Below are positions 6,909 to 15,751 of a stretch of 46,884 bases of DNA, piece by piece. The stretch is from Bacillota bacterium (GTDB lineage: Bacteria > Bacillota > Sulfobacillia > JAJZYS01 > JAJYTV01), in NCBI GenBank assembly GCA_021793645.1, contig JAJYSJ010000019.1, positions 1 through 46,884 of the forward strand, read 5' to 3'. Made by a program: the position numbers and the translations under genes. The notes below the pieces were generated by a model. It was given only the letters and a program-made list of their open reading frames with translations, was not told the origin of the DNA and did no database searches. How positions within the stretch are numbered: position 1 is the first letter of the stretch; each line of letters starts with the position of its first letter.

Positions 6909-7766
6909 CTAGCCTCCCAGGAAGACCTCGACCACCTTGGGGTCCTTGGCCGCGGTCTCGAGTTTGCCGACGAAGATCTCAGCGCCGGCGTTCATCACGA
7001 CGACTTCCTCGGTAACCTTGCCGAGGAAGCCCATCAAGTGCTCGACGATGAGCATCGTGATGCCTTCCTGGCGTAGGGCGTTCAGCTTTGCGGCCACGAG
7101 GTCGAGATCGGCCGGGCCCAAGCCAGCGCCCAATTCGTCGATCAGCAGGAGATGGGGGTCGGTCGCGAGCGCCCGCCCGAGGTCAAGGAGCTTCTGCTGG
7201 GCGGTGTTGAGGGAGTCCGCCGGGCGACCGGCGAGCATTTGCAGGCCGACAAATGCGAGGATGTCGTCCGTCTTGCGTTGGCTTCGCCGGCTGTACATGC
7301 GGGCCACGTCGATGTTCTGACGCACGGTGAGCGAGCCGAAGGGCTTCGGCACCTGGAAGGTGCGGTTGACGCCGTGGTGGCTGAGGTGGTGCGGCGGCTT
7401 GCCCGTGACGTCCACGCCCTGCAGCTCCACCTTGCCGGCGTTCGGCCGGTAGATGCCGGAGATGATGTTGATCAAGGTTGTCTTGCCCGACCCGTTCGGT
7501 CCGACAAGACCGAGCGCCCCGCCCTTGGCCAGTTTGAGGTTCACGCCCTTGAGGGCCTGAGCATTCACTTGGCTTGCCCAGAATTTGAGGCCGGCAAGTT
7601 CCGGCTGCGAGGACGTGGCATATGCCCCCGAGCCAGCGTAGAGCGTCCCGATCGTGATCGCCTTCGGCACAACCGGCGCGGACGAGCTGGGTGTGGAGCC
7701 GCAGCCCGCGGCTAGGAGGCCCGCCGCCGCAGCCAGTACGAACGCGTAGCGCCTGAGATGCATCAT
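6909..7766 (-). pseudogene. Chimeric gene: livK 5' part fused in frame to livG ATPase
   Basis: The start is ATG 7766 (two Met codons in tandem). Residues 1-22 are a lipoprotein signal with lipobox LAAGC, followed by the first 45 residues of a LivK-type binding protein (KAITIGTLYAGSGAYA). Near residue 70 the text switches to the ATPase LivG (LKGVNLKLAKGGALGLVGPN, then GSGKTT at about 92-97, and LLLIDELGAGL as Walker B). The first LivG residues, the rest of LivK, and LivH and LivM are missing. The ABC signature is LNTAQQK. An in-frame deletion of about 3 kb would explain this. A lipoprotein signal on a cytoplasmic ATPase makes function unlikely, although the frame is open throughout. Confidence 0.85.
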
Positions 7767-7859
7767 CACCAATCCTGTCGCCTCCTCAGCAAATTGCTCA
7801 CCGGCGATGAGCGCGTAGAGCATGGGGGCCATCCTTTCGGCATCCGCCGGGTATCGAAT

Positions 7860-7892
7860 CGGTTGGCCCGGCTCGGGGCGCCGGGCCAACCG
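7860..7892 (-). terminator. 13-bp hairpin between livK remnant and livK-livG fusion
   Basis: A perfect 13-bp stem (7860-7872 with 7880-7892, loop of seven) lies after the stop of the livK C-terminal remnant on the minus strand. It is placed as a terminator for that gene. There is no T-run. Confidence 0.6.
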
Positions 7893-7920
7893 GAACGCAG
7901 GGTCCGCGGGCGGCCGTTTG

Positions 7921-8250
7921 TTACTGGCCGGGCGGCGTCACAGCCGAACCGGTCGCGACAGAGGACGGGTAGACGATGACGGTCTTGAGGCCGCTGCCAC
8001 TCGGCTGGAGCTGGGCAACCGGCAGCTGCTCGCCGAGTTGGGCGCCTTCGCTGTTGATCTTGAACTGGCCATCGAGCGTGAACATCGAGATCTTGCCTGC
8101 GGCCGCACGCAGGTCGAGCTGCGAGAGCGACTTGGCGGTCTCAAGCGTCTTCTGAATGGCAAGACCCGTGTTGTAGCCGGCGACGTCGAGAAAGTTCGGT
8201 GCTGAGCCGGTGCTGGACTGGAAGGCCTGGCTGAATGCGGAAAGCGTCAT
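7921..8250 (-). pseudogene. C-terminal remnant of a LivK-type substrate-binding protein
   Basis: About 109 residues match the C-terminus of periplasmic branched-chain amino-acid binding proteins: the helix NTGLAIQKTLETAKSLSQ, the typical DLRAAAGKISMFTLDGQFKI and the strand VIVYP before the end. The usual protein is about 400 residues, so three quarters are absent. Upstream of 8250 the frame soon meets a stop and no binding-protein sequence is seen. Together with the fusion at 6909-7766 this shows that two livK copies once stood in tandem or that a segment was rearranged. Confidence 0.8.
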
Positions 8251-8990: not shown

Positions 8991-9016
8991 ATTTTCCCTG
9001 AAAAGGAGGTTACTAC

Positions 9017-9106
9017 ATGTACGAAGCCCCATACCTCCTCGACATCGAGGAGTTAGCCGGCACGGTGACCGGCGACTGTGGAGGTTGCAGCACTGGCGGA
9101 AGCTGA
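9017..9106 (+). CDS. RiPP precursor peptide, 29 residues
   Basis: ATG 9017 stands seven bases after a near-perfect AAAAGGAGGT. The 29-residue product starts MYEAPYLLDIEEL, an acidic, hydrophobic leader-like part. It ends in DCGGCSTGGS, a Gly/Ser-rich segment with two cysteines spaced C-G-G-C. It directly precedes a PqqD-like protein and a radical SAM/SPASM enzyme, which in known systems bind a leader and modify a core. I infer that YLLDIEELA is the recognition part and that the Cys/Gly segment is the core. The exact leader/core border is not visible. The stop lies 13 bases before a hairpin that would favour expression of this gene over those downstream. Confidence 0.75.
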   Translation: MYEAPYLLDIEELAGTVTGDCGGCSTGGS

Positions 9107-9119
9107 TCCAGCGGGAGCA

Positions 9120-9171
9120 GGCAACGGCAAGCGGCGGGGCAACCTGCCGCTTGCGGTTGCCGCTCCGTTTT
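9120..9171 (+). terminator. Attenuator-like hairpin after the precursor gene
   Basis: A 16-bp stem with one mismatch (9120-9135 with 9146-9161, 10-base loop) is followed by GCTCCGTTTT. It resembles a leaky intrinsic terminator placed between precursor and enzyme genes, a usual way to make excess peptide. Confidence 0.65.
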
Positions 9172-9187
9172 ACAGAGGTGAAAGTTG

Positions 9188-9592
9188 ATGACGGTGTCAG
9201 TTGGGAGGACGCGCGACATTCTTGAACGCGAAAACTACACGGTCTATGTGGACATCCTTCCAGGTGATGGTGGTTTCGCGGGACGAAAGATTTATATCTC
9301 CCACTCAACTCCTGTCTTGATCCCCGAACCGGCTCACCATCACGCCGGTTTCGATCACGTGTTCATCTTGGTTCGGGGCAAGGCTCAGTTGGCCACGGAA
9401 CAAGGGGCCAGGGTGGAAGTCGTTGAGATGAGTCCGGTCTTCCAATATCGAGTAAGTGGGGCGGTGTTACATCAACTCCGGCTTGAGCCAGATTCGATCG
9501 TGGAGAGCCTGTTCGACAAGCAGGCGTGGATGAATGCGAACATCGTGGTGGAACACACCCTCTTCCCGGCTACGGGAGGTGATCCCGCATGA
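9188..9592 (+). CDS. Cupin-domain protein of the RiPP locus
   Basis: The 134-residue single-domain protein starts at ATG 9188 with GAGGTGAAAG upstream. The in-frame TTG three bases before is a weaker choice. The segment HHHAGFDHVFILVRGKAQL (about residues 50-68) resembles the metal-binding first cupin motif (H-x-H...VL-x-G). VLHQL at about 94-98 would supply the second-motif His. Cupins of this size act as small metal enzymes (isomerases, epimerases, dioxygenases) or sensors. Its place directly after the precursor suggests it handles the peptide or its product, but no substrate can be read from sequence. The stop overlaps the next gene's ATG (ATGA). Confidence 0.75.
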   Translation: MTVSVGRTRDILERENYTVYVDILPGDGGFAGRKIYISHSTPVLIPEPAHHHAGFDHVFILVRGKAQLATEQGARVEVVEMSPVFQYRVSGAVLHQLRLEPDSIVESLFDKQAWMNANIVVEHTLFPATGGDPA

Positions 9593-9858
9593 GGGCACTT
9601 GAGATGATAGTCGATGAGCAGCCAGGTGGTGTTTACACCCTCCGCGTGCCGGAAATAGCGAGCGTCTTTGTTACTAACCAGTTGGGCGTCGACATCGTTG
9701 GGAAGCTCGTCGACGCCGACCTCTCTGCCGATGAGGTTGTTGCCTGGGTGCGCGTCAAGTACCCGGACGTGCCTGCCGCGCGCGCGGAGAGCGATGTGCG
9801 GGCGTTTCTGTCGAGAGCACGGGAGAAGGGCGTGGTACTATCCGATGATGCCGATTGA
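9589..9858 (+). CDS. PqqD-like RiPP recognition element (RRE) protein
   Basis: The 89-residue protein starts at ATG 9589, inside the ATGA shared with the cupin gene, with GGGAGGTGAT upstream. The order of a short N-terminal beta part (GGVYTLRVPEIASVFVTN), a helix (GVDIVGKLVDA) and two further helices (SADEVVAWVRVKYP and AESDVRAFLSRAREKGVVL) is that of PqqD/RRE winged-helix proteins. In PQQ, mycofactocin and many radical SAM RiPP pathways this protein binds the leader and presents it to the radical SAM enzyme. The gene overlaps the radical SAM start by 11 to 14 bases, as expected for partners. Confidence 0.8.
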   Translation: MRALEMIVDEQPGGVYTLRVPEIASVFVTNQLGVDIVGKLVDADLSADEVVAWVRVKYPDVPAARAESDVRAFLSRAREKGVVLSDDAD

Positions 9859-11014
9859 GCTGATCGGCAAAGAGGCTAAGCAGTTCCGTCCAACGGTTTA
9901 CTGGTACCTGAGTTTTCGCTGTAATCTGGAGTGTGTGCATTGCTGGGTCAACTCATCTCCACATGTGGACACGTCCACGGACCTCGATGAGGAAGGCGCT
10001 CTTACCACGGCCAAGAAGATCGCCAGCTTTAACCCGACGGCTGTAACCCTCTCTGGTGGCGAACCCCTGCTCCGACGAGATGCTCCGGTGATCATCTCCA
10101 CCCTTCTCGATGACGGGGTGAACGATCTCCGTATCGAGACCAACGGTATGCTTGCCCGTCCGGCGGTAATGAAGCCTCTCGTTGAAGCCAACGAACGAGG
10201 AGTGCACATCGTTATCGCTGGTAGTCTCGACGGAGGTACGGCTGCAGCGCACCAAGCGATGCGCGGTGAGGGCACGTTCGAGATCGCCTTGCGGGGCTAC
10301 CGGCGTTTTCTTGACGCCGGGCTGTGGACAGAGCTTCAGTGTGTGGTAACACGTTTCAATATCCACTCCATACCTGCACTCTTGGATGTCGCCCTTGAGT
10401 TGGGAATCAACCGGCTAAAGTTCGTGTTCGTCAACCCGGTAGGACGAGCGGCCGACCACTTCGACGATCTGTCGATCCCTCATCGCGAGTACGGTGCTGC
10501 TCTTGAGTTCCTGGCCGACTCCGCTGAGGCGTATCCGAGCCTCCTGCGGGTCAAGAGCCCACCCGCCGCGATTCCGCCTCATCTTCTGACCCGCCTTACG
10601 TCCCTGGCTGCGCAGCGGGAAGCCTTTTCCGGCTGTGGCTTTCCTCTGTTGGGTGTCCTGCCCGACGGATCCGTCACGATCTGCGGCCTAACCCGCGACA
10701 ATGCGGACCTGAGACTCGGACACATCCTCGAAGATGAACTGGCGGACCTATGGCGTAAGGGACAAGGTGCGCGGCTTCGGGAGATGTACATGCGTGCCGA
10801 GCTCACCGGCATCTGTGGTGATTGCGTATTCCGCACCAGTTGCAAAGGAGCATGTCGGGCCCACGCGTTCGGTGAGGGGGACTCGTGGAGCGCCCCCTAC
10901 CCCATGTGCGCCGATCTTGAGCGGGAGGGACTGTTCCCCAACGTCTACCGAGCGAGTTTCTTCCGCCGGATTAACCCAGAAACTGCTCCCATCCCTAGCA
11001 GCCGCGATGCTTAG
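9848..11014 (+). CDS. Radical SAM enzyme with full seven-Cys SPASM domain
   Basis: The 388-residue protein starts at ATG 9848 (ATG 9845 is equally possible), overlapping the PqqD-like gene. The radical SAM cluster is CNLECVHC (Cys25, 29, 32). The SAM-binding GGEP motif is at 70-73. The C-terminal SPASM domain has the complete pattern: Cys263, GxxxxC ending at Cys279, then Cys323-x2-Cys326-x5-Cys332-x3-Cys336, and Cys354. It therefore should carry two auxiliary 4Fe-4S clusters, as do PqqE, AnSME and sactipeptide maturases. With the PqqD-like partner it is expected to form a carbon-carbon or carbon-heteroatom bond in the precursor. The chemistry on the Cys/Gly core is unknown. Its stop overlaps the MFS start. 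Confidence 0.9.
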   Translation: MPIELIGKEAKQFRPTVYWYLSFRCNLECVHCWVNSSPHVDTSTDLDEEGALTTAKKIASFNPTAVTLSGGEPLLRRDAPVIISTLLDDGVNDLRIETNGMLARPAVMKPLVEANERGVHIVIAGSLDGGTAAAHQAMRGEGTFEIALRGYRRFLDAGLWTELQCVVTRFNIHSIPALLDVALELGINRLKFVFVNPVGRAADHFDDLSIPHREYGAALEFLADSAEAYPSLLRVKSPPAAIPPHLLTRLTSLAAQREAFSGCGFPLLGVLPDGSVTICGLTRDNADLRLGHILEDELADLWRKGQGARLREMYMRAELTGICGDCVFRTSCKGACRAHAFGEGDSWSAPYPMCADLEREGLFPNVYRASFFRRINPETAPIPSSRDA

Positions 11015-12224
11015 GCCACTTCGATCGGCCCCGTTTGCCTATCTGGTCGCCGGACAATCGCTGTCGCAGCTCGGAGACACGCTTCTCTTTGTCGGTGGGT
11101 TATGGTTCCTTCAGTCCGTGTCGCCCTGGCTGCTCGGCGTTGCGGGGATCGTAATCGCCATCCCGTCGTTTGTCTCTTACCTGGGTGGCGGCTTGGCAGA
11201 TAGCTTGGGCGCTCGTGACCTAATGCGATGGACGGAAGTCGCGCGGGGCATCATCATTGTTGCAGCTGGCGTCACGGCCCTCATGGTGCCTGCGGCCGCA
11301 GCTGTCCTCATCCTGTTGGCCCTTGCCGTATCGGCTTTCGGGGACTCGCTGTTCGTGCCCGCCCAGATCTCATTGGTGCCTCGCCTCCTTAAGGGGGATG
11401 AGGATCTTAATTCCGGAAACGGCATCCTCTCTGGATTGACACGACTCGCTGATATGGTCGGGCGGTTAGTCGGTGGCCTGTCCAGTCTGGCGTTTGGCGT
11501 ATTCGGCTTACTCGCCTTTGATGGCCTAACATTCCTCGGCAGCGCGGTATGCGTGGGCCGCTTGCCCGCTGACGCCCCACCCCCAGGCTCGTCGAACCGG
11601 CGGCGCTTGGCTTGGTCCGACCTCAAAGCTGGATTTGACTACAGTCGTAGCGTCGGGTGGTTCTTCAAGATCGTCCCACCCGCGGTCCTCATCAACCTTG
11701 CGCTGTCCGGAGCTCTGCTCACGCTCCCGATCCTCGTCCAACGAGGTCTGCATCAGGGAGCCGCTACCTACGGTGTCCTCCTTGCCATCTGGTCGGCGGG
11801 CCAGTTTGTGGGTTCCACATCGGCCGCAGTTATGAGGTCTAAGCCCCCTCGGGTTGTATGCGGGACAGCGGCAATAGTGCAAGGTCTTTCGTTGCTCGCC
11901 CTTGCTCTGACCGGTTCCATCTGGATCGCAGCGGTGGCCCTTGGGGTCGCATCCACCGCCAACGGGATCAGCAACGTGTCCCGGACGACGCTGATGCAAC
12001 GGCTCGTCCCAAGCGAGTTCCGCGGTCGGGTATTCGGCTTGCAGAGCACTTTGGTTAGCATGGCAAATCCTTTCGGCCCGTTGCTGGCAACAGCCCTGGC
12101 CCTCAGTGTCTTCCCTGGGGCAATCTGGCTCCTTGTCGCCGCTCCGACACTTTGGTTGGCCATTCTCTACTGGACCTTGCCGGGCTTCCGGTTTAGTCCG
12201 GATGCCCCCGGGGTGCGAGCATGA
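11007..12224 (+). CDS. MFS exporter of the RiPP locus
   Basis: The 405-residue protein starts at ATG 11007, overlapping the radical SAM stop by eight bases. It has about 12 membrane segments in two halves and an MFS-like loop after segment 2 (GGGLADSLGARDLMRW). The second half carries TLMQRLVPSEFRGRVFGLQS, characteristic of the MFS_3/enterobactin-exporter-like group. In this setting it most likely exports the mature peptide or a small product of it, or confers self-resistance. No peptidase-containing ABC exporter is present, so leader removal must be done by another protein, probably the next gene. The following gene overlaps by four bases (ATGA). Confidence 0.85.
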   Translation: MLRPLRSAPFAYLVAGQSLSQLGDTLLFVGGLWFLQSVSPWLLGVAGIVIAIPSFVSYLGGGLADSLGARDLMRWTEVARGIIIVAAGVTALMVPAAAAVLILLALAVSAFGDSLFVPAQISLVPRLLKGDEDLNSGNGILSGLTRLADMVGRLVGGLSSLAFGVFGLLAFDGLTFLGSAVCVGRLPADAPPPGSSNRRRLAWSDLKAGFDYSRSVGWFFKIVPPAVLINLALSGALLTLPILVQRGLHQGAATYGVLLAIWSAGQFVGSTSAAVMRSKPPRVVCGTAAIVQGLSLLALALTGSIWIAAVALGVASTANGISNVSRTTLMQRLVPSEFRGRVFGLQSTLVSMANPFGPLLATALALSVFPGAIWLLVAAPTLWLAILYWTLPGFRFSPDAPGVRA

Positions 12225-12652
12225 ATCTGTCCCGTGCCGTCATCCCTGACCATCCAGCTGTCGTCGCTCTAAGTGAGCGGTCCCCTCGTCGGATTGAGAC
12301 GCTTGCTGACCTCGGGCTGACCGCCGACCAATACCGTGGTTGTCGCGGAATAGAAGCCGCCGTTCAGTCGGGACGGGTGAATTGCATCGACCTTGCCAAC
12401 CTTGTCTGTTCCGTCATGCGACATCGCGGGTGGCGCTCGGATCAAGTCTACGCAGTCCTCGGCGTGCCAATCGCAATGCAAAATGGTGCTCACGCGGTAG
12501 CGGTGTGGCGGGAAGATGACCGATGGCTTTGCGCGGACGTTCAGAATGGGTCAGACCTCCGGGGTGCGCTACCGGAAGGGAAGTGGTTGGTTGCGTACAA
12601 CGACTTGGTAATGAGGGGCTTCCATGAAATCGAGCCCGAGGTGGTACGGTGA
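12221..12652 (+). CDS. Transglutaminase-like cysteine protease (lasso-B2-like)
   Basis: The 143-residue protein starts at ATG 12221 (ATGA overlap with the exporter). A Cys-His-Asp triad is visible: Cys55 in VNCIDLANLVCSVMRHRG, His91 in NGAHAVAVWRE and Asp106 in LCADVQNG. Spacing and flanking text suit the small transglutaminase-like fold used by lasso-peptide B2 leader peptidases. It is therefore the best candidate for removing the leader of the 29-residue precursor. It could also be a different acyl-transfer enzyme. The stop overlaps the next gene's GTG (GTGA). Confidence 0.7.
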   Translation: MNLSRAVIPDHPAVVALSERSPRRIETLADLGLTADQYRGCRGIEAAVQSGRVNCIDLANLVCSVMRHRGWRSDQVYAVLGVPIAMQNGAHAVAVWREDDRWLCADVQNGSDLRGALPEGKWLVAYNDLVMRGFHEIEPEVVR

Positions 12653-13350
12653 TCATCTGGATGGGTACGTTCCAACCCGTGCTGAAGGAGCTTTTTACCC
12701 TCTGGGTGTCTGGCGCGCCGCTGTCCGACATCCAGATGACGATCCTGACTCGGAACGGTCTGGCGTCGTCCGAAGGGCTAGGTCCACGGGTCAATGTGGT
12801 CGGAGATGAGCTTTGGGATCGGATGAGAAGTATCGCGCGCACCCACACCTATGAGGCCAGCCGGTGGCTAGCGGATCTGAACGATCGATTGAAAGGGGAG
12901 TTAGAACCTGGCCCCCGCCTTCTGGCTCTCCTTGCTTTCGGTTTGGACCTTGGATGGGGCGAGCACAGTGATGCGCCAATCGGACAGGATCTGGTCGTTC
13001 ACGTCCTTCCGGATCATGAGGCCGATTTCGGTGTCAACGCTGACTGGAAGGGGAAATTCGGTTACCTTTGGTCCCGGCAGATACGACGGCCTGGCGAGCC
13101 CGCTCCAGGAGGCCGTACGATCCCTCTCGAAGATCCCCAAGGGATCCGCCTAGTGGAGATCGGACGAGAGATTGCCAACCACCTGCCTCCCCAACCGACG
13201 TCATGGTTGGAAGGCGCTGATGCACATCTTATGCGCCGTGTTGCGATGCTCGAAATGGCGTCCCAGATTAACCTTGGGGAGGTGCCCCTCTATCAGGACG
13301 ATGCTACTTGGACCTGGGAGGTGGATTTGCCGTGGCGCCATCTGAGATGA
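12649..13350 (+). CDS. Unrecognised protein of the RiPP locus
   Basis: The 233-residue protein starts at GTG 12649, inside GTGA shared with the protease stop. It is conserved in position within a tightly overlapped operon, so it is a real gene. No family is recognised. The N-terminal third is helical, the centre has a hydrophobic part (GPRLLALLAFGLDLGWG), and the region GQDLVVHVLPDHEADFGVNA is rich in His/Asp that might bind a metal. It has only scattered Trp (13) and no Cys. It may be a tailoring enzyme or an immunity factor. Its stop overlaps the SDR start. Confidence 0.65.
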   Translation: MIIWMGTFQPVLKELFTLWVSGAPLSDIQMTILTRNGLASSEGLGPRVNVVGDELWDRMRSIARTHTYEASRWLADLNDRLKGELEPGPRLLALLAFGLDLGWGEHSDAPIGQDLVVHVLPDHEADFGVNADWKGKFGYLWSRQIRRPGEPAPGGRTIPLEDPQGIRLVEIGREIANHLPPQPTSWLEGADAHLMRRVAMLEMASQINLGEVPLYQDDATWTWEVDLPWRHLR

Positions 13351-14075
13351 TTGCCGTGGTGACTGGATCCTCGTCCGGCCTCGGTCGTGCCATCTGCGAG
13401 CGTTGGCGTGACACAAACCGCCGCTGCTGGGGAATCGACCTTCGCCCGGGAGAGTACACTGACTTGGTGGGCGACGTCCAGGATGATACATTCTTGAAAC
13501 AGGCTTTCGAGTGTGTCGCCCAGCTCGGGCATGTCGACGCCGTCTTTCTCTGCGCCGGCGTGTTAGGAGCAAGATTCCCTGATGACTTGGCTTCAGCCCC
13601 CGAGGTCCTGAGTGTGAACGTCGTTGGGGCATATGCGTCCTTCAGGACCTTTCTTCCACTTCTCGCAAGCGCACCGCGGGGTGGTGCGGCCGTGTTTATC
13701 TCATCGATCTCAGGATCGCGGGGCTCACCATCGCATCCGATCTATGCAGCCTCCAAGGCCGGCGTGGAAGCGATGGTGGGTTCGCTTGCGCCGCAAGCTG
13801 GCAGGCAGGGGGTCAGGGTTGTTGGCCTCAGTCCCGGGTCCATCTTTGGGACACGGTTCAGTGCGGAGAGTACGTCGGTCGACTTGAAGTTGAACCTGCT
13901 CGCTACCAATTCGCTTCCAGCTTTGCTTGGTCCGGAGGGGGTTGCACAGGTGGCAATAACCCTTGCCGGGCCGACGTTTTCCGGGCTCACCGGGACAACA
14001 GTGACCCTAGACTGTGGGGAAAGCTTGGCCCGGGTCGTGCCACAGACGGGAGCATCGGACAGTACCCGAACCTAG
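13347..14075 (+). CDS. Short-chain dehydrogenase/reductase of the RiPP locus
   Basis: The 242-residue protein starts at ATG 13347 (ATGA overlap). It has the nucleotide-binding TGSSSGLG (residues 6-13), the structural CAG motif (residues 69-71), the catalytic Ser in FISSIS and the YAASK pair (Tyr133, Lys137). It should be an active NAD(P)-dependent oxidoreductase. As the last gene of the RiPP operon it may reduce or oxidise a carbonyl or alcohol produced in the peptide or in a released amino-acid-derived product, much as in pathways that trim a RiPP to a small molecule. Confidence 0.8.
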   Translation: MIAVVTGSSSGLGRAICERWRDTNRRCWGIDLRPGEYTDLVGDVQDDTFLKQAFECVAQLGHVDAVFLCAGVLGARFPDDLASAPEVLSVNVVGAYASFRTFLPLLASAPRGGAAVFISSISGSRGSPSHPIYAASKAGVEAMVGSLAPQAGRQGVRVVGLSPGSIFGTRFSAESTSVDLKLNLLATNSLPALLGPEGVAQVAITLAGPTFSGLTGTTVTLDCGESLARVVPQTGASDSTRT

Positions 14076-14559: not shown

Positions 14560-15513
14560 TCACGAAGCGCGTGATTCCTGCCCGGTCGTCTCTCCGGGGC
14601 AGCACCTCCTCTCAAACTCTGCAGGGCTGATCTGGCCAAGCGTGGAGTGACGACGCCAGCGGTTGTAGAACGCCTCGATGTACTCGAAGATGGCAGACTG
14701 CAGCGCCCTGCGCGTCGGCCAAGTACGACGGTCGAAGAGCTCGGTCTGCAGCGTCGCCCAGAAACTCTCGGCGGCAGCATTGTCGAGGGCGTCTCCTACG
14801 GTGCCCATGGAGCCGAGGATGCCAGCCTCGCTGAGGCGCTGGCCGAAGGCGAGCGCGGTGTACTGGGCGCCGTGACCGGAATGGTGCACGAGGCCGGGAG
14901 CCGGCTTGCGGTTGAAGATGGCCATGTTCAAGGCCTGGATGACGAGGTCTGAGCGCAGATGATCGGCCATGGCCCGGCCGACGACGCGGCGCGAGAACAG
15001 GTCAAGCACCGCGGCCAGGTAGAGCCAGCCTTCGGCGGTCGGATGCTGCGTGATGTCGGCCACCCAGACCTGGTTCGGTGCCGAGGCGGTGAATTGCCGC
15101 TGCACGAGGTCGGGGGACGGCGTCCGGCGTGGATCACGCCGCGTCGTGCCAGTTGTCTTCCTGCGGCTGATGCCGGCAATCCCGGCGCTGCGCATGAGTC
15201 TCGCCACCCGCTTGCGCGAGCAACGCACTCCGTCGCCGATCTGGAGTTCTGCGTGCACCCGCGGTGCGCCGTAGGTCCCGCGGCTCTCGCGATGGATCTG
15301 CCGGATCCGCTGTGCCAGATGCCTGTCGGCCTGCTCCCGCCGCGAGGGCCCGCGCTTGCGCCACGCATAGTACCCGCTGGGGGAAACGCCGACCACGCGG
15401 CAGAGGATGATCACGCTGTGCGACGCCTTCTCCGCGTCAACGAAGCGGAACGCCGCTACGGGTTCCGGCTCTGCTCCTTGGCGAAGAAGGCTGCGGCTTT
15501 TTTTGGATTTCAC
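14560..15513 (-). pseudogene. IS3-family transposase OrfB, catalytic residue lost and out of frame
   Basis: The frame contains the helical IS3 region (YGAPRVHAELQIG), the first catalytic Asp (NQVWVADITQHPT) and the Glu motif (NAAAESFWATLQTE), ending FYNRWRRHSTLGQISPAEFE. The second catalytic Asp, normally in HHSDRGSQY, is replaced: the text is HHSGHGAQY. In addition, the -1 frame entered from orfA at the A7 run gives KKAAAFFAKEQSRNP and then stops. OrfB continues only in a third frame, indicating a one-base deletion near 15462. Both defects argue for an inactive transposase. Confidence 0.85.
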
Positions 15514-15751
15514 GCTCTTCCCGCAGAACTCGGTTCTCTCGCCACAGGCGCCTGAGCTCGTCGCGCTCCGCCTCCGTCAGGCCCTCACGCTTGCCTTCTT
15601 CGACCTCAGCTCGCTGTATCCACTGGCGCAAGGACTCCACGGACACCCCGAGGTCCCTCGCCACCGCCGCCATCGGCTTCCCGTGCTCCCGAACCAGCCG
15701 TACGGCCTCCTCCCGGAACTCCGGAGGATATGGCCTTCTCGAACTCGGCAT
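15437..15751 (-). CDS. IS3-family transposase OrfA (HTH protein)
   Basis: The 104-residue protein begins MPSSRRPYPPEFREEAVRLV and shows the classic OrfA helix-turn-helix (AAVARDLGVSVESLRQWI) and a leucine-rich stretch. Near its end the message holds seven A followed by G (minus strand, around 15498), the usual A-AAA-AAG slippery site for -1 frameshifting into OrfB. The downstream orfB is broken, so the fusion transposase cannot be made. Confidence 0.85.
   Translation of the reverse strand: MPSSRRPYPPEFREEAVRLVREHGKPMAAVARDLGVSVESLRQWIQRAEVEEGKREGLTEAERDELRRLWRENRVLREEREIQKKPQPSSPRSRAGTRSGVPLR

Follow-up and report, generated by a model that had tools for sequence, protein, structure and literature searches.

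A 29-codon gene as probable precursor of an apparently undescribed, small radical SAM RiPP family in Bacillota

In lasso peptide pathways discrete RREs bind a leader motif, [Y/W]xxPx[L/V/I/A/F/Y], which has been reported for PQQ precursors too (PMC13381572). The lasso B2 peptidases, which act with the RRE (B1), are transglutaminase homologues and prefer Thr at position -2 (PMC10368454). The PQQ pathway (PqqA/PqqD/PqqE) has a discrete PqqD and a separate SPASM enzyme (PMC8326336). In sactipeptides and ranthipeptides a SPASM radical SAM enzyme lies beside a Cys-containing core, and an RRE fused to the N-terminus of the maturase, typical of CteB and SkfB, is usual, not universal. Mycofactocin loci combine a short precursor, a PqqD-like protein and a SPASM enzyme with a short-chain dehydrogenase/reductase (SDR) nearby, and SynChlorMet systems include the PqqD-like ScmD and ScmF.

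The locus described here lies in a 46,884-nucleotide stretch of DNA from a Bacillota bacterium, called the window below (Table 1). Its YxxPxL leader and stand-alone PqqD-like RRE resemble those of lasso pathways. Two further likenesses belong to the window cluster only, a transglutaminase-like protein and, tentatively, a Thr two residues before D-C-G-G-C. The leader is present in all precursors of the family; a Thr at -2 can be placed in the window peptide alone, where it would be set by GTVTG, extra residues that no other precursor has. A radical SAM enzyme stands instead of the asparagine-synthetase-like cyclase of lasso pathways, and no such cyclase was found among the cluster proteins scanned (9017-14075). 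As in PQQ synthesis, PqqD and the SPASM enzyme are separate and the leader motif is lasso-like, but there is no Glu/Tyr core, and scores stay below the curated cut-offs of the PQQ equivalogs (PqqD 27.2 of 46; radical SAM enzyme 64.4 of 381). Unlike the usual sactipeptide or ranthipeptide maturase, the enzyme has no fused RRE, its radical SAM Cys motif beginning at residue 25, and the core has a single invariant Cys with no CX3D repeats. The short precursor, PqqD-like protein, SPASM enzyme and nearby SDR are shared with mycofactocin, but the Val-Tyr C-terminus is missing, an exporter is present, and the mycofactocin models score 102 bits against a cut-off of 265 for the radical SAM enzyme and 81.6 against 300 for the SDR. 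No NCBIfam model reached its cut-off with the radical SAM protein; the nearest was ScmF (TIGR04251, 164.7 of 400 bits), and the PqqD-like protein gave 19.6 of 100 bits with ScmD. A literature search outside subscription papers found no description of this architecture. The family is best read as small, apparently undescribed and of a known kind, the radical SAM RiPPs, in which the leader would guide modification through a discrete RRE.

Table 1. Features of the window cluster and the homologous short frames of its relatives.
Feature	Position	Strand	Basis or sequence
Shine-Dalgarno AGGAGG	9004..9009	+	7 nt before ATG; perfect AGGAGG match, read from sequence
Precursor peptide gene	9017-9106	+	ATG 9017 to stop 9106; 29 aa MYEAPYLLDIEELAGTVTGDCGGCSTGGS
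Putative RRE-binding leader motif YEAPYL (YxxPxL)	9020..9037	+	Alignment; motif definition PMC13381572
Invariant core C-S-T-G-G (C-x-T-[G/S]-G)	9086..9100	+	Alignment; synonymous core changes in G097 tandem copies
Strong RNA hairpin separating the precursor gene from the enzyme genes	9114..9166	+	Fold energy against shuffles
Cupin-like protein, 134 aa	9188..9592	+	Cupin call by eye from sequence
PqqD-like discrete RRE	9589..9858	+	PF05402 E 1.8e-8, above cut-off; alignment
Radical SAM maturase, CX3CX2C and seven-Cys SPASM	9848..11014	+	PF04055, PF13186
MFS exporter	11007..12224	+	PF07690 E 4.6e-25, TIGR00900 E 7.9e-37
Transglutaminase-like protein, candidate leader peptidase	12221..12652	+	PF01841 E 7.3e-5; relative in related radical SAM/PqqD cluster
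Protein D	12649..13350	+	Alignment and co-occurrence; 233 aa vs 312-342 aa in relatives
SDR	13332..14075	+	PF13561, PF00106; TGxxxGxG and S-Y-K intact
G066 short frame	upstream of pqqD		ends ...KKWQTPILVDLEDVAADCGICATSGTTNNNNKIQ
G319 short frame	upstream of pqqD		MMKKYEKPILVALHEVASDCGICNTGGQAVA
G097 short frames, tandem pair	upstream of pqqD		MYQKPVLIDLMEMENAACDWCVCVTGGSL and MYVKPILVDLEEMNGAACDWCVCVTGGSL
G207 short frame	upstream of pqqD		MKNKEYEKPVLISLDDVLVDGICITGGGSNQERSPK

An earlier note, made from the window's letters, had read the short frame as a 29-residue precursor with a leader-like, acidic N-terminus and a Cys/Gly/Ser core, preceded by a strong ribosome site. The translation is as it had said, the ribosome site is present (gaaaAGGAGGttactacATG), and the division into leader and core, with PqqD and a SPASM maturase nearby, is supported. 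A profile of five peptides from other genomes was searched against the 1145 stop-to-stop frames of the window and gave the precursor frame as its single significant match (E 5.8e-6; next 0.34). The same held-out test, in which the profile is made without the peptide or peptides of one genome and then searched for that genome's own, placed the own peptide at the top in every case (E 5.8e-6 for the window; 6.5e-10, 1.7e-12, 1.2e-6 and 1.6e-6 for the others), and the best non-precursor frame reached E 0.28 or worse. A leader-plus-core pattern, P.L..[LI].[ED]-(3-12)-C.T[GS]G, matched precursor peptides only in 1.09 Mb of locus DNA, a total in which overlapping loci are included repeatedly; 2.8 Mb of sequence simulated with the dinucleotide statistics of the window gave no match. 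As the pattern was derived from these same peptides, the held-out profile test is the stronger evidence. The frame at 9017-9106 is a real gene overlooked by normal annotation.

Relatives were located using the window radical SAM protein as query. The cluster was found in six scattered Bacillota genomes, intact in five of them (the window included) and decayed in one. Radical SAM identity to the window is 42% in G066, 40-41% in G097 (a Symbiobacteriaceae bin), 40% in G319 (contig JAMCQP010000103) and 30% in G207, a closed genome. In the sixth, G020, the radical SAM protein is 52% identical over the best segment; its reading frame is broken, a transposase-like fragment lies upstream and the leader and core motif is absent. 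This decayed gene (G020:C150, L107:2787-3955, minus strand) adjoins an MFS gene. All four intact relatives have a short homologous frame immediately upstream of pqqD, and a purine-rich (G-rich) ribosome site precedes every one, the weakest being that of the second G097 copy. Among 398 genomes of the phylum, convincing matches to the precursor profile occurred only in three, which also have the intact radical SAM enzyme and protein D. Wider searches in the classes of G207 and G319 yielded no further cluster members, and a plasmid collection gave only generic radical SAM proteins, below 30% identity, among the matches listed. Five intact clusters make for a thin core alignment. A long frame (L105:10716-13853) lies downstream of the G066 cluster, and its second half resembles, by eye, a cobalamin-binding radical SAM enzyme of the type known from RiPP clusters. 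The region downstream of the G097 cluster (L106:10545-17490) holds an S15-type peptidase (PF02129), a Rce1/CPBP protein and apparent aldehyde-dehydrogenase-like and ThDP-enzyme genes.

Alignment of the six precursors gave [Y/W]xxPxLxx[L/I]x[E/D] as the conserved leader and C-x-T-[G/S]-G as the conserved core, in which a single Cys is invariant; the RRE leader motif is present in 6/6. The YLLDIEEL string, expected to be conserved, is not kept as such, the leader being conserved in the form YxxPxLxx[L/I]x[E/D]. The CGGC proposed as conserved core did not hold and is ruled out: the first Cys is absent from G207 (DGICITGGG) and the spacing is altered in G097 (CDWCVCVTGG), so a Cys-Cys relation cannot be the universal product. 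The other five precursors have CxxC (window, G066, G319) or CxxCxC (both G097 copies). The two tandem copies of G097 differ in 15 codons. All six changes in the core (A17 to L29) are synonymous, with no nonsynonymous ones, and the leader has three synonymous and six nonsynonymous changes. By this comparison the core codons are under purifying selection. Both points on which the earlier note had staked its reading, a frame at homologous loci and selection on its codons, were thus found.

The frame does precede a hairpin, as had been said, but it does not lie directly before the maturation genes, since the cupin-like gene intervenes before pqqD. An 82-nt stretch covering the hairpin folds at -51.8 kcal/mol (z -6.5 against 200 shuffles), and hairpins occur at the equivalent position in G319, G097 and G207. 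The hairpin is likely to be an attenuator or stabiliser, which would let the cell produce more precursor than enzyme. From the cupin-like frame through the SDR the genes overlap or lie almost end to end, as they would in a single operon; a scan for promoter and terminator consensus sequences detected nothing. The cupin-like protein has no Pfam or NCBIfam match, a PDB sequence search returned none, and no such gene was seen in the other clusters. An IS3-like transposase pair lies directly downstream of the RiPP cluster (window 14560-15751, minus strand). On its other side (window 6909-8250, minus strand), ABC genes of the branched-chain-amino-acid type appear rearranged: a lipoprotein signal and the start of a binding protein continue directly into a LivG-like ATPase, with a C-terminal binding-protein fragment alongside, which is either a real deletion or an assembly error.

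In the five-member alignment the radical SAM cluster cysteines (25, 29, 32) and the SPASM cysteines (263, 279, 323, 326, 332, 336, 354) are invariant, and from the latter seven two auxiliary clusters are expected. The SDRs of the intact clusters keep their cofactor and catalytic motifs, and within each genome no protein matches the window SDR better than the cluster's own; the genes are orthologous and linked in 5/5, and in the three relatives with a next match listed the cluster SDR leads it by about 9-11 orders of magnitude. Protein D was found only where the cluster occurs, bar two weak partial matches, among the 398 phylum genomes. It has no family match; its AlphaFold model (mean pLDDT 67) had no Foldseek match below E 0.25, and a second structure comparison gave a best Z of 5.5, with weak winged-helix-like matches to residues 11-77. 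The window PqqD (26-32% identity) and the shorter window protein D (19-25%) are distant from their relatives, which leaves room for functional divergence. The window carries an MFS pump and a transglutaminase-like protein in place of ABC-2 export genes, seen in G066 by Pfam match and in G319 and G207 by sequence inspection, and of a Rce1/CPBP-family membrane protein, present in G319, G097 and G207. Putative exporter genes, MFS or ABC-2, accompany four intact clusters out of five; in G097 none was identified. The transglutaminase-like gene had no homologue in 100 relatives, nor was one seen in any of the four intact clusters outside the window; its predicted structure (pLDDT 39) is too low for use. 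A role as leader peptidase is a suggestion by family only.

Frames with a YxxP leader were also found near about 90 other radical SAM loci; most appear to be chance and three look real and different. A distinct related cluster (G087:C8, L136:7450-9512, minus strand) has a precursor ending ...PNWQQPALLDLECLAKDCKCGCCFIVGQAEKKK, PqqD, a radical SAM enzyme and a transglutaminase-like protein, the last related to that of the window (E 6e-6 in pairwise comparison) and followed by two ABC-transporter-like genes. Two short frames lie upstream of radical SAM genes and have a YxxPxL leader: MEEKLSYEAPKLITYSNDDILDEVGPAQACAPTPCPVGNV (L044:4921, plus strand), with two Cys, and MEKELMKKPYEKPALILDNTDTEADKADPADVAPIITGVAIIASAVFAKYC (L018:969, plus strand).

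At this locus a gene-encoded peptide made up of leader and core is linked to genes for maturation enzymes, and the cluster includes a PqqD-like protein, features expected of a RiPP and of RRE dependence. What is established here is that the gene is real, conserved and linked, and that the enzyme families have intact cluster ligands. We consider the frame to be probably the RiPP precursor of the adjoining PqqD/radical SAM pair (probability about 0.85). That it is a chance open frame might be argued from its 29 codons and from the lack of any Pfam or NCBIfam match; the held-out profile test, the codon selection, the conserved position and the ribosome sites contradict this, and the chance is negligible. 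It is very improbable, too, that the peptide stays unmodified and chelates metal through CxxC while the radical SAM enzyme has another substrate. Five of six precursors do have CxxC or CxxCxC, but G207 retains the whole cluster with one Cys, and the leader motif linked to an RRE points to presentation to an enzyme.

For a precursor of the PqqD/radical SAM pair, the likeliest course would be as follows. The N-terminal YxxPxL leader would bind the stand-alone PqqD-like RRE, which would present the C-terminal core to the SPASM enzyme; the modification would fall on the invariant Cys of C-x-T-[G/S]-G or close to it. The most likely single product may be a thioether from Cys to a nearby carbon. This is our leading guess, held tentatively, as there is no conserved acceptor except the Thr and Gly beside the Cys and the sequence does not force a thioether. 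Oxidation of the Cys to a carbonyl is unlikely, and the remaining probability falls to other kinds of radical chemistry, C-C bond formation and epimerisation among them. Protein D and the SDR may modify the product further or assist the maturase. Removal of the leader would be the task, in the window, probably of the transglutaminase-like protein; in relatives the Rce1/CPBP protein may do this. The short peptide may then be exported by the MFS pump or, in relatives, by ABC-2 transporters.

Two other readings keep the precursor and change its fate. The SPASM enzyme might work like an anaerobic sulfatase maturase (anSME) and oxidise the invariant Cys to the formylglycine or thioaldehyde level, the SDR then reducing or tailoring the carbonyl. 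Three things agree with this: a short motif opens with a single invariant Cys, every intact cluster has an SDR, a carbonyl enzyme, whose motifs are intact, and anSMEs are among the nearest relatives of known structure for the radical SAM protein (1.1e-16). In that search, however, SkfB and PqqE gave higher scores. Known anSME substrates carry a C-x-P/A-x-R motif, which is absent here, and we give this reading a minor chance. Less probable still is a small cofactor of the PQQ or mycofactocin type, for which the core would be modified, most of the peptide discarded and the cofactor used by the SDR. The PQQ-like separation of PqqD and SPASM enzyme, the strongly conserved core and the constant SDR are in its favour; against it are the linked putative exporters, the absence of conserved C-terminal residues among the precursors, an SDR far under the mycofactocin-coupled models, and no further linked oxidoreductase set.

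Returning to the leader-guided radical SAM RiPP, a new class, in which a lasso-type RRE hands the core to a SPASM enzyme acting at a single Cys, SDR and protein D tailor it and a product with an unseen linkage is exported, is a speculative possibility, against which the odds lean. New chemistry is plausible since protein D could be assigned neither to a known family nor, with confidence, to a fold, and since no clear role for an SDR exists in the radical SAM RiPP classes compared. A conserved enzyme set here probably has as its substrate the product of a 29-codon frame below gene-calling limits, and the C-x-T-[G/S]-G core motif with its leader is what reconstitution of the reaction needs. The locus brings together leader recognition of the lasso type and the chemistry of radical SAM enzymes, and it would be more than a small new radical SAM RiPP family if the linkage in the product or the step of the SDR and protein D proves new.
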